Part shown: positions 10,836 to 64,000 of the stretch, piece after piece
Layout of the letters: the number at the start of each line of letters is the position of its first letter
Numbering within the stretch: the first letter of the stretch is position 1
NCBI GenBank assembly: GCA_037039925.1
Contig: JAXRKP010000279.1
Span: 289,218-353,217, forward strand
Length of the DNA: 64,000 bases
DNA from: Doris montereyensis
Lineage: Eukaryota > Mollusca > Gastropoda > Nudibranchia > Dorididae
Direction of reading: 5' to 3'
Notes under the pieces: model-generated
What the model was told of the DNA's origin: nothing
The model's database searches: none
The model's input: only the letters and a program-made list of their open reading frames with translations
Made by a program: the position numbers and the translations under genes

Positions 10836-11576
10836 AAAATGGATTTGATTCATCTACAAAGTTCATATCTTCTCTGGCAAAGTTCTTACAGTCTTTATGT
10901 AATGGATATGTTGAATTTGATTCAGGTGTGGAAGTCATTGGCCACATCTACCTAAGTGTTGATACTGGCAAGAAAATTGATTACATCCTTAATGAAAAAG
11001 TGTGCAAGACAGATGAAAATAGCGTTACCTTCATTAGCAACAGTTTTCATGCACAGCCTGCAGAAAAGCCCAAACCACCACCACCGAAAACTAATGCAAC
11101 AATCCCTGAAAAAGAGGAGAAAGTTGTAGATGATGATGATATTATTTTAATGGATGAGCCAGAGAGTACTAATACCGGTACTATCCCTATGAGAGACAAT
11201 AGTCCCCAAAATAATGCTCCACCTTCAAATTTCAATAACGCATCAGGTGCCTCTAAACGTCCACACAATCAGCATTTTCCACCCAATCGTCCTTCAAAAC
11301 ATCGCAGAAAAGATTCGTCGTCTTCAAATCCTCATGGTGCACCATCGAACTCACATGAATCACATGACTCGTCATTTAGTTTACCATCAGAAATGTCCAC
11401 TGTTACACCAGCATCAGAAGCAGATCTTTCTCATTTATCACAAGCTCTCGCAGACAATAATTCATCACATCTTGAAGAAAGGGATGTGAAACCAGTTTTA
11501 GACAGTGATATGAATGTTGTTAATGTTAAACAGGAATACGATCCATCTGCTGAAAGTCAAGATTCAAGTAATATGT
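10836..11576 (+). CDS. Shared exon A of the zinc-finger gene
   Basis: Internal coding exon of 741 bases between a strong acceptor (TCTTCTCCATTGCAG) and the donor GTGAGT. Its first two bases complete a codon begun in an unseen upstream exon; its last base (T) starts a codon finished by shared exon B. The first ~75 residues (FDSSTKFISSLAKFLQSL, then VEVIGHIYLSVDTGKKIDYI) look like a small folded alpha/beta region I cannot assign; it shows no BTB signature. Next come a Pro/Lys stretch, an acidic DDDDIILMDEPE that fits a SUMO-interaction motif, Asn/Ser-rich disorder with a basic KHRRK patch (possible nuclear signal), and VNVKQEYDP, a classical SUMO-acceptor consensus (VKQE). The ATG at 10745 seen in the open frame lies in intron sequence and is unlikely to be used. 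Inferred role: common part of a family of nuclear transcription factors whose DNA-binding end is supplied by the downstream cassettes. Confidence 0.8.
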
Positions 11577-12960
11577 GTGAGTATCTTATTTTTTGTCCCT
11601 TTTGCTAGAGATAGTAAATGGTTTAATGTTGATTCAAATTTATTACATTTTGTTATTTAGTTTGTAAATCCATGGCTGTGGAAAGGATAATCATTGGATG
11701 CTTCTAATTCCAATGTATTAATTTTTAGCAGCGATCTAGTGTTGCCTGTGTATTGTCTGTTCAGCCTAAAGTCTATATAATCAGATTGACACAAAGATTT
11801 TTGTTGTCTTCCGCCAATACAGTAGTAGGCCGTCTAACACCACATTGTCTCAGGAAACATAATTTATTCTATGTATAAAAAAATGGCTGGGCCAAGCCAA
11901 CAGTGATCGTATGGCATGTAGGTCATTAACAATGAGTCTTACTTTACCGGCCAGACAGCATGGTGTCAAGATACACAGTCTAGGCAAAACAAACATTGGT
12001 CTAAATTCATCATTCCTTAATGTGCGGTATTTAAACAATTGAGGTTAATCGTCAATCAAATCAAAGATGCGTGTCCAATCAATGTGGTGTTGGTAAATGA
12101 GTTTGATTGTTGCATGCTTGTGAGGTAGAAATGGACAGCCATTGACTTCATAAAGTTATGTCTGCTGCAAGTCTGACATATCTGTCTATGAGGTGTTCAT
12201 TGCGTGATAAAATGATTGACATGTTGGATAAAATTATGTCTTTTGCATAGCTGCCAACCAGTGTGTAAAAACATATTTAGTATGGGTTGGGTTTTTTTTT
12301 TAGCTTTTAGTCTGTAAGTATATTGAAAAAGTGTGTGTTTACGGTCTGTTTTGTTGGGTTTGTTTTAAAAAAAAAATAATTTAATCCTTAGTTAAAGGCA
12401 GAGAGTCAGAGATATGGGCCGGTTGATAATCCGAAGACTCCATTCTTAGTTCGTAAAACTACCAGCAATCCCTGAAAGGGGTTTTAGGCTAAATTATGAG
12501 TTGTTTCTGGAATACCACAGTCTGTCCGCTTCTAGTGTATTTTTCTAATTAGAGACGATTGAAATCAGACTTATAATTCTCTTTTTGCCAGTTTAAAATA
12601 AACAGACATAAAGCTGAAGTTGAAGTTCCCTAATGGCCTAGATGCTCAGAATTGCAGGGTATCAAGACTTAATTATTTCTCTGTTAAAGAGGGCACCTGT
12701 CAAAACAAGCTTTTATCCTTTAACCCACTGACACTTAAGATAAGTGAGGAAAAGGTGTATCATAAAGTTTCCTGAAGACAATATTGGGCCCAGCAAAACT
12801 TTGAACTTTGTGATTTGAACACAGTACTTAAGTTTTGTCTACCACTAGACCACCATGAAAACAAAATAAAGAGTGAACAGCAATGTTTTCCCTTTTATGG
12901 AACATGGGGACAGCATCATATCGACAGTAAAAGTTGCAAACTCTAAGTCTAAAATTTGTA
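11577..12960. other. Intron between shared exons, left part
   Basis: AT-rich intron with no supported exon; poly-T and poly-A runs at 12292-12301 and 12365-12378. The small reading frames here have no recognisable homology. Confidence 0.5.
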
Positions 12961-13993
12961 CAGTGGATGTTGCATAAGTCGACATTGCATAAGTTGATGG
13001 TTTTTTACTGTCCCATCTCCCACACATTTTTTAGTGAATGAAAAACTGTTTACATCGACATCGTCTTAAGTAACATGCCTTTCAAGTCGATCGTTTTTCA
13101 AGGTCCACAGGTGGTAAAAGGAATGAAACTACGATTGCATATGTTGTTACGATTTCAATGCCATCCACGACCGTTGACCCCACAGCTAGAGAACACGATC
13201 AATATAAAATGTTAATATGCCTGTATTAATGATTATTAAACGCTCATTCACTCGCCTTCACTCTACATCTCAAGATTCAAGTAGCGCAAAGGCACTCATA
13301 TGTTGGCATATGGCTGGCCATATGACCTGTTGTTTGTCTTTCTTTTCTCCTGGTCAATAGTACCCAGTTGCGACTGAACCGATCAGAGCGATGGCGGGCG
13401 AGGTGGGTGATGGCCAATAATAACTAAAAATATAATATGTCGCGTGGGTCTTAATCGTGTTGTCAGCATTGAGACGTGACTATTGCAACAGAGAATATTC
13501 TGCTTCGTTTTTGTTCAACACACTGTGTAATTAATACAGTCCGTAGCACATCATATGATGTTGATCTAGTTCAACTTGTACTACTCATATTCGTACACAA
13601 TCATATACCAGCCATCAGCATTAATATTATTAGTAGGTATATCTCCATGAAGCACTTCACGAAACAGACGATTGGTTTAAAATTAAAGCCAGAGATCTAA
13701 TCGCACGTGCAGTCTTGCTCTTACTAATACAATACCACTTCATCCTCGCCACTTTTTTTTTTTCACTTGGAATTCTACCACTTTGCTCAATCACTCGAGC
13801 AAGAAAAATACACAAAGACAACACATGCATGTGACCACAAAGCCACATGTCAGTAATTAGTCATAATGCCCAAGACCTTTATGGTGAAAATCATGTCACG
13901 GGAGGTAACTGAGCAATTGCTTAAGTCGATTTTAACATAAGTCGATTTTTCTTTAATGGGTCCCTTCAACATCACCGTATGCGGTATCCACTG
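12961..13993. mobile_element. Nonautonomous pogo/Tigger-like DNA transposon
   Basis: Bounded by CAGTGGAT at 12961 and ATCCACTG ending at 13993, with TA on both outer sides, as expected for the TA target duplication of Tc1/mariner/pogo elements. Subterminal repeats of GCATAAGTCGA / TTAAGTCGATT type occur at both ends in inverted orientation. About 1.03 kb with no transposase frame, so a nonautonomous copy sitting in the intron between the two shared exons. Confidence 0.75.
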
Positions 13994-14507
13994 TAACACC
14001 TTTTTCTCTCTCTTGCTTTTTAACATTAAGAAGCCTCTATACTTCGTAAATTGGGATTCTGTGGCAAAAGAATCAGTTTTTGACACTTGCACACCGTATC
14101 TGTCTGTGAAAATAGATAAGCATCAGTTTCTTTGATTTTCTCATGACGTCCAAAATTGAACGTATACGGTTTGTGACTTTCACTGTCGATATCTTCTACA
14201 AGGCTGTGAAATGAATTAAGTGATGAAGTTTCCTACAATTCTCAGCTGTTTTAAAAAAATTGAAAGTTGTGTTTTATGTAGATTGATGCGAGAATAATTT
14301 TGTTTCAGAGATTTGGTCACAAAGGTGTTTTTCGCATTATGGTTTTTTTTATGCTCTTGATGATCACAACTTTGTAAATGTAAGCTTTCTTAGCTTTATC
14401 GATTTAGCATTTAAGATTGTCCTGAGTTGGAAGCGTTCTCTTGATACCTGTTACATTTTGTTTCATGTTTGACTAATTTGTTGATATTTTTCTTTTTGTT
14501 CATCTAG
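13994..14507. other. Intron between shared exons, right part
   Basis: No supported exon; ends in the acceptor TTCTTTTTGTTCATCTAG at 14490-14507. Confidence 0.5.
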
Positions 14508-62398: not shown

Positions 62399-62399
62399 C

Positions 62400-62616
62400 A
62401 TCTCTCTCTCTCTCTCTCTCTCTCTCTCTCTCTCTCTCTCTCTCTCTCTCTCTCTCTCTCTCTCTCTCTCTCTCTCTCTCTCTCTCTCTCTCTCTCTCTC
62501 TCTCTCTCTCTCTCTCTCTCTCTCCCTCCCTCCCTCCCTCCCTCCCTCCCTCCTCTCCTCTCTCTCTCTCTCTCTCTCTCTCTCTCTCTCTCTCTCTCTC
62601 TCTCTCTCTCTCTCTG
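62400..62616 (+). repeat. (CT)n microsatellite with TCCC core
   Basis: About 215 bases; same orientation as the other CT tracts. Confidence 0.97.
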
Positions 62617-63885
62617 GAAATATAAGACTTGAACAAGGATATTTTTCTTTAAACATTATTTACTAGCTTCCCTTGGACAAGTAGCGAATGGTCTATCAGC
62701 AGTACTGATAACCCATAAGCTCTACTTTTCTCTGCTTACACTGTTTTCCATATGTTTGAGTCGCCCCGTATTTGACTTGCATAGAGATACAAATATGCGA
62801 CGACTAACAGTAATTTCAGTCAATTAATCGATCACAACTGAGTTCAGTGCGCGACCAGAGAATCCCAAGACATGCATGTATGAGAATTTAAAGATGTTTT
62901 TATCACATTGAAACACAAACAAAAAACATTTGATCCACAATGTTAATTTTTTTATTTTATCGAAATTCAAGGAATAACACTGCATAAGACCGACAGTTAA
63001 TCAAATGAGGAAAAACATTGGCAGGACAAATACAGATCGATAGTAATGGAGAAGTTTTAAAGTAAAAGGAACAAGACAGGTCAGAGAAAGATACGAGCTG
63101 CGCACCTTTTTTCAGCGAGAAGGATAAAACATCCCGCAGAGATATCTTTTCTTTCTTATTCATCTTAGGCCTCTTCAGTTTAAAATGTACATAATTTGTC
63201 ACTGTTCTTCATCGAAATTCAAGCAGGGAAAGTTTTAGTTACATGTGTTACATAAGATTAAAAGAGGAACCGTGAATCAGAATGGAGAATAAAAAGAAAG
63301 ATGGATATTGAGAGTTGAACGACCACGGAGATTAAAGGGCTTAATACTGTTGTTAATAGCACTCTGTTGATGATACTCGATTGTCAACATAGTCAGCAAT
63401 ATTCAATGTACACGATTGTATACACTGGGGCCACGAGAATGTCTTTGTCTAAGAGAGAGAATAGGAAGTGAGAGAAAGTAGGGAGTGTGTGTCTGAGAGA
63501 GAAAGAGAGGCAGAGAGAGAGAGAGAAAACGAGAGTAGTGATTGAGGGAGTACTTGAGTAGGTAGGGAATGAGAGAGAGACAGACAGAGAGATTATGTTG
63601 TGTACGTGTTCTAGGCATTTAACAAATTGAAGGTCATTTACAAAATCGATAAGCCATTTTTAACTTATCTTTCAAAAGCATATAAAATTTGCACAATTGG
63701 ATTCCAAGAATCAAAGTTTTGGCGAGTTTACGTCATTCAGCTCCATTTTGGGCTATTCTCAGCAAACAGGAAAACATTCAGTCATTCAGATGCACGCGTG
63801 TACAAGTTGTAGTCAAGCCGGTGCATTTCCGACTACTAAATACGTCACTTTTGGACATCATTCGCACCCATTTTCTTGTCTTCAG
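62617..63885. other. Intron before cassette 34
   Basis: A GA-rich patch at 63455-63595 (opposite polarity to the CT tracts). No exon before the acceptor. Confidence 0.45.
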
Positions 63886-64000
63886 GTACTTCTGTTGTGA
63901 AAAGGCCATACAACTCGTTGAGAGCTTTGTGGAGACCAGAGAGCAGTGTCCAGTACAAGATTGCCCCAGCGTCATCCTGAATCATTACAGCAAGTACGTT
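63886..64000 (+). CDS. Class 2 zinc-finger cassette 34 (partial, cut by window end)
   Basis: Acceptor CATTTTCTTGTCTTCAG; phase bases GT give Gly. Leader TSVVKRPYNSLRALWRPE, then the class 2 start EQCPVQDC and SVILNHYSKY appear one frame over, so there is a frameshift near 63942 (or the printed leader frame is wrong). The exon runs past the window, showing that the array continues. Confidence 0.65.

Follow-up and report, generated by a model that had tools for sequence, protein, structure and literature searches.

At least 33 exchangeable zinc-finger ends behind one shared N-terminus: a probable transcription-factor gene in the nudibranch Doris montereyensis

In Dscam1, mutually exclusive internal exons are chosen by RNA pairing, with one picked out of tens of variants. 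Closer in layout to the gene described here are two loci of Drosophila. The first, lola, joins one common N-terminus with a TTK-type BTB domain to many alternative 3' ends, mostly C2H2 zinc fingers (17 of 20 isoforms in the account of PMC11426971), and its trans-splicing has been described. The second, mod(mdg4), has about 30 isoforms that share a BTB N-terminus and vary in their ends, FLYWCH ends among them, and both trans-splicing and cassettes on both strands are described for it in insects (PMC4667647). The TTK-type BTB domain is reported as confined to arthropods, with Mollusca among the groups searched (PMC11426971).

Here we analyze 64,000 nucleotides of Doris montereyensis (contig JAXRKP010000279.1, positions 289,218 to 353,217; hereafter the window), for which an initial annotation made from the letters alone had proposed a lola/mod(mdg4)-like layout outside arthropods. 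Two common coding exons, e1 and e2, are followed by a run of zinc-finger cassettes, and we place the probability at roughly nine in ten that this is one gastropod transcription-factor gene in which the e2 donor is joined to one of at least 33 cassettes, giving one DNA-binding end per mRNA. The likeness to lola lies in the common N-terminus and the many alternative, mostly C2H2 ends, whereas the N-terminal domain here has no Pfam match and the cassettes number at least 33 in two classes. Dscam1 shares the choice of one variant out of tens, but its variants are internal exons and those described here are terminal. A k-mer test for Dscam-type docking and selector complements, run on the window sequence alone, gave nothing above shuffled controls.

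Layout of the locus

The two shared exons proposed in the initial annotation are confirmed at 10836-11576 and 14508-14714. Both end in phase 1, and the joined reading frame has 316 residues and closes with the split codon G|. A search with this joined query, covering proteins of 174-553 residues, returned 261, and 120 of them were listed. The MD-x-(D/E)-SS motif of e1 is the protein start in 117 of these 120, so e1 is the first coding exon. The other three (P0040, P0046 and P0111, with P0046 marked partial) carry extra residues N-terminal of the motif, and none of the 120 listed relatives has a domain there. The features of the gene are as follows.

10836..11576, + strand: e1, first common coding exon; ATG at 10839, conserved domain of about 75 residues, serine/acidic linker with a VKQE motif
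14508..14714, + strand: e2, second common exon; ends in phase 1 (G|), donor GTGGGT
18764..19027, + strand: cassette 1, class 1 (C2H2 pair); frame broken twice (both -1), approximate end
19676..19899, + strand: cassette 2, class 1; intact
20174..20547, + strand: cassette 3, class 1, three fingers; intact, clear Physella orthologue (P0029)
21527..21750, + strand: cassette 4, class 1; intact
23885..24126, + strand: cassette 5, class 1; intact
24248..24561, + strand: cassette 6, class 1; intact
25405..25621, + strand: cassette 7, class 1; one -1 frame break
25846..26033, + strand: cassette 8, class 1; intact
26199..26383, + strand: cassette 9, class 1; intact
26433..26623, + strand: cassette 10, class 1; intact, acceptor 49 nt past the cassette 9 stop
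27331..27524, + strand: cassette 11, class 1; intact, Bradybaena orthologue (P0041)
28072..28275, + strand: cassette 12, class 1; frame broken twice (both -1), approximate end
29699..29910, + strand: cassette 13, class 1; intact
30155..30342, + strand: cassette 14, class 1; intact
30761..30966, + strand: cassette 15, class 1; intact
31417..31622, + strand: cassette 16, class 1; intact
34700..34938, + strand: cassette 17, class 1; intact
35821..36023, + strand: cassette 18, class 1; intact
36599..36921, + strand: cassette 19, class 2 (CPxxxC..RHWxEKH..DPxPxT tail); intact
38177..38378, + strand: cassette 20, class 1; one -1 frame break
38960..39288, + strand: cassette 21, class 2; intact
40914..41221, + strand: cassette 22, class 2; intact
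42679..43007, + strand: cassette 23, class 2; intact
45463..45785, + strand: cassette 24, class 2; intact
48092..48450, + strand: cassette 25, class 2; intact
49053..49393, + strand: cassette 26, class 2; intact
50630..51005, + strand: cassette 27, class 2; one -1 frame break
53004..53398, + strand: cassette 28, class 2; apparently decayed, with shifts of both signs (+1 and -1) and uncertain boundaries
54865..55211, + strand: cassette 29, class 2; frame broken three times (all -1), approximate end
58244..58599, + strand: cassette 30, class 2; intact
59634..59974, + strand: cassette 31, class 2; intact, in one group with cassettes from Physella and Biomphalaria
61020..61393, + strand: cassette 32, class 2; intact, with reciprocal best matches from five species
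63886..64000, + strand: cassette 33, class 2; truncated where the window stops, with one -1 frame break

The 33 cassettes form one run from 18764 to the end of the window, all on the strand of e1 and e2. Thirty-two were found on that strand by tblastn with the C-terminal ends of relatives, the one at 53 kb resting on a single match (E = 4e-4), while cassette 33 has a weak match to a hidden Markov model (HMM; E = 0.11) and was recognized by reading. Class 1 comprises 19 cassettes (1-18 and 20), usually with two C2H2 fingers and once with three; class 2 comprises 14 (19 and 21-33), in which the CPxxxC...RHWxEKH finger is followed by a second finger and the DPxPxT tail. On the minus strand of the window the class HMMs gave nothing better than E = 0.02; since these models were built partly from window cassettes, their plus-strand matches are not independent. 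The array proposed in the initial annotation is real, but 33 cassettes were found and no 34th; as the array runs on beyond 64000, the count is a lower bound. Of these 33, 25 are open from acceptor to stop and the other eight are not.

In the mechanism we propose, a short 5' part would lead into e1, where translation would begin, and e1 and e2 would be common to every product. The phase-1 donor of e2 would be spliced to a single acceptor out of at least 33 that lie downstream. Every acceptor opens a cassette that brings its own zinc fingers and its own stop, and the acceptor chosen would set the DNA-binding end. The first acceptor used would fix the product, as its stop would close the frame even with later cassettes in the 3' untranslated region (UTR). 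The cassettes are presumably used in this way in this animal, and presumably bind DNA.

Anatomy and phase support this mechanism. With any phase allowed, the best-scoring acceptor is in phase 1 in 22 of the 25 intact cassettes (8.3 expected), a count whose trials are not independent because the cassettes are duplicates of one another. The matching phase and single strand anticipated for the array are borne out. In the relatives, all 83 of 83 isoforms from eight gene groups have G, A, D, E or V as the first residue past the junction (a ninth group of six proteins, whose common prefix stops short of the junction, was left out, and groups of fewer than three were uncounted), which is consistent with a single split codon G|NN in phase 1. 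The same holds for 26 of 26 isoforms of a Babylonia gene. Cassette starts and ends also match annotated relatives at or near the residue in the seven pairs aligned: cassette 3 starts with EGSR where Physella P0029 has EGAR, cassette 11 with DFWRYKFQC where Bradybaena P0041 has DAWRYKFQC, and over the seven orthologous or closest pairs the relative's end lies within 0-16 residues of the end of the window cassette.

Adjacent cassettes are separated by gaps of down to 49 nt, and the gaps preceding cassettes 6-10 contain no canonical poly(A) hexamer. Some mRNAs therefore probably carry later cassettes in the 3' UTR, and the choice would then be made among tandem acceptors. Six long TC/CT tracts lie on the sense strand inside the array (24594-24691, 37825-38053, 47148-47577, 49439-49716, 53564-53988 and 62401-62615), and no GA tract of at least 16 bases occurs anywhere in the window; one may speculate that the TC tracts bind a CU-binding splicing factor. 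Elsewhere in the window, an open reading frame at 668-3322 on the minus strand encodes a reverse transcriptase (RVT_1, E = 1.4e-31). It also matches an endonuclease, weakly and below the cut-off, and looks like a non-LTR retrotransposon upstream of e1. A stretch at 56200-56600 resembles by eye the tRNA-like head of a SINE, although ARAGORN called no tRNA there, and it is followed at 56473 by a weak class-2-like tail.

Gastropod relatives and the shared domain

The conservation of the gene and the annotated isoforms of its relatives also lend support. The 103 species-named proteins among the 120 listed are all from heterobranch gastropods, a placing that we have checked for Physella. Three genes, Physella LOC131934882, Biomphalaria LOC106079054 and Aplysia LOC101845285, belong to the same clade as the window gene and have the same domain, linker and cassette classes. 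They account for at least 34, 37 and 27 member sequences respectively (summed over listed rows), and the isoforms of each share about 316 residues and then diverge, under names as different as "zinc finger protein 37 homolog" and "uncharacterized". The layout proposed outside arthropods is thereby upheld: gastropod relatives share an N-terminus, differ in their ends and are annotated as isoforms. In a tree of N-termini with midpoint rooting, the window gene and the protein P0001 fall in this clade but outside the sampled Aplysia, sacoglossan and pulmonate members, a placement that points to a heterobranch belonging to none of these groups, perhaps a nudibranch.

Splicing of the N-terminus to the ends is further supported by five relatives (P0065, P0080, P0082, P0088 and P0111) in which both parts are encoded without introns on contigs of 1357-1815 nt. 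These are probably cDNA, since such contigs are too short for the introns seen here. Two of them, P0080 and P0082, have 309 residues in common and then different ends.

A second search, with the N-terminal domain only and covering proteins of about 437-1390 residues, gave 82 proteins; the 78 that are species-named are all gastropod and include caenogastropods (Pomacea, Littorina, Babylonia, Batillaria and Nucella, with the placing of Babylonia checked). A further heterobranch paralogue appears here as Physella LOC131934887, Biomphalaria LOC106053932 and Aplysia LOC101860137, and Babylonia LOC143293577 has 26 listed isoforms with 339 residues in common. Among ten proteins scanned for ends other than C2H2, two carry FLYWCH (P0190 and P0134), and a homeodomain (P0145), HTH_psq (P0127) and BED (the heterobranch P0067) occur once each; P0183 gave a QRICH1-like match below the cut-off, and the remaining four had no match. 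The FLYWCH ends of caenogastropod members recall those of mod(mdg4), while tblastn with family members, FLYWCH ends included, found no FLYWCH cassette in the window. The origin of FLYWCH itself is traced to a Mutator transposase (PMC10027918).

In the second search, P0125, P0128, P0131 and P0133 represent a further heterobranch paralogue in which the domain is followed by a different C-terminal region for which no finger matches are listed, and its clusters reach 33-49 member sequences. A divergent copy of the domain occurs in a long protein of caenogastropods (P0191-P0194). No Pfam family matched P0191 at E = 0.01, and this protein is possibly closer to a single-product ancestor.

The shared domain of about 75 residues has 59 invariant columns over 18 sequences, and 31 over 33 sequences when caenogastropods are included. 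No Pfam family was found in e1 or e2 at E up to 1, and none of the 33 proteins scanned carries a BTB domain, in agreement with the initial annotation, which had seen none. Structure models are poor (pLDDT 47.8 and 62.6) and suggest one helix followed by strands. In the linker, a [VILMF]KxE match lies within residues 151-360 in 177 of the 181 relatives of at least 350 residues; the VKQE of the window gene fits the SUMO consensus and would be a putative site. The domain would serve as the shared effector or partner-binding part.

The layout is thus like that of lola and mod(mdg4), but the gene appears not to be a member of those families by descent, because their defining BTB domain is absent by sequence and the TTK-type BTB domain is reported as arthropod-only. 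The independent origin suggested at the outset is well supported, as the domain is not BTB by sequence and every named protein found with it is gastropod.

For 11 of the 25 intact cassettes, the best-scoring counterpart comes from another species and not from the same array, in a comparison limited to isoforms among the matches listed. Cassette 3 reaches 144 bits with Physella P0029 against 43 within its own array, cassette 11 reaches 106 with Bradybaena P0041 against 66, and the corresponding values are 94 against 66 for cassette 31 and 112 against 74 for cassette 32. Trees support several cross-species groups (1.0, 0.98, 0.91 and 0.84) and also show local duplicates such as cassettes 8-10; the sorting pattern for the class-1 tree also drew in cassette 32 and some relatives' class-2 ends. 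In eight related cassette pairs, identity at third positions is 0.32-0.50 vs. 0.57-0.79 at positions 1 and 2, a pattern as under purifying selection. In finger 1 the usual DNA-contact helix positions vary, as do other positions, and in finger 2 position -1 is almost constant, in a table that also includes some class-2 cassettes.

Weighing the alternatives

Several observations weigh against the reading of one gene with exchangeable ends. In this assembly eight of the 33 cassettes are broken, and the e1 start ATG (10839) is one base out of frame. The nearest relative of 14 of the 25 intact cassettes lies in the same array, and dS is saturated and unusable in seven of the eight cassette pairs. 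The "isoform X" labels of the relatives are annotation, not observed reads. The best inner GT sites of the cassettes reach 5-7 of 9 in donor consensus score and are not separable from the e1 donor (6 of 9; e2 has 8 of 9). The initial claim that the cassettes lack a donor therefore cannot be established by consensus score, although their terminal nature is better backed by the relatives' ends in the seven pairs given above. Canonical poly(A) hexamers are not enriched past the stops (9 of 25 within 600 nt, with a window mean of 0.77 per 600), and with none before cassettes 6-10, an own 3' end for each cassette is not supported. Finally, all three listed isoforms of Pomacea LOC112563527 (P0139, P0141 and P0142) join differing leads to one common downstream stretch.

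The same products could arise by trans-splicing, in which each cassette would have a promoter and its transcript would be attached to an RNA of e1 and e2 made independently. This route has some precedent, since trans-splicing is described for lola and mod(mdg4), the two known cases of such a layout (PMC4667647, PMC11426971). However, all 33 cassettes lie in one run on the e1-e2 strand, whereas fly mod(mdg4) has some on the other strand. With every cassette on the strand of e1 and e2, cis splicing suffices and is presumably what occurs; we regard trans-splicing as unlikely here.

It is equally doubtful that the broken cassettes are real pseudo-cassettes. Cassette 28, with its mixed +1 and -1 shifts, looks more decayed than the others and would fit such an explanation. 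The other seven broken cassettes show -1 breaks only and, counted with e1, all 12 shifts outside cassette 28 are -1; the flanking frames still read as fingers, and the e1 start is broken in the same manner despite the conservation of the gene. Pseudogenes would be expected to show both signs, and a -1-only pattern fits the deletion errors of an uncorrected long-read assembly. Outside cassette 28, the breaks look like assembly error.

Could the cassettes instead be internal exons of one polyfinger protein? The Pomacea isoforms argue for this in part: two pieces may be joined there, so the annotation of the family does not follow a one-cassette rule throughout. All 25 intact cassettes of the window, however, end in a stop, and the aligned relatives end at or near the same place, which makes a polyfinger product very improbable; protein lengths say little on this matter, the first search having been limited to 174-553 residues. 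Least credible of all is that the finger exons are small genes in their own right or retrocopies, as their compactness and own stops might suggest, because in 21 of the 25 intact cassettes no in-frame Met precedes the finger anchor used, the best acceptors share one phase in 22 of 25, and the relatives' proteins have matching cassettes attached to the same N-terminus at an identical position.

Implications for gastropod transcription factors

The gene is not peculiar to this genome. It is a member of a multi-gene gastropod family that is already in public annotation, unexplained, and our literature search found no published account of gastropod arrays. We consider it likely that gastropods, independently of insects, evolved a plug-in family of transcription factors, in which a fixed, unrecognized N-terminal domain and a phase-1 junction are combined with exchangeable DNA-binding ends (C2H2, FLYWCH, homeodomain, HTH_psq, BED and the QRICH1-like piece below the cut-off), some of them probably from transposons. 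If this is true, a new binding domain would need only an acceptor of the right phase to join the system.

Since lola and mod(mdg4) have been described as arthropod designs, the same layout on an apparently unrelated domain would represent a convergent route to dozens of transcription factors per gene. Comparison between the systems would make it possible to test why all ends share one N-terminus, how one of 33 acceptors is chosen and whether trans-splicing is needed. The layout would also account for the many differently named "zinc finger proteins" of gastropod annotation, which would be the products of only a few genes. It draws attention, too, to a strongly conserved, uncharacterized domain present in Biomphalaria, Aplysia and Physella.

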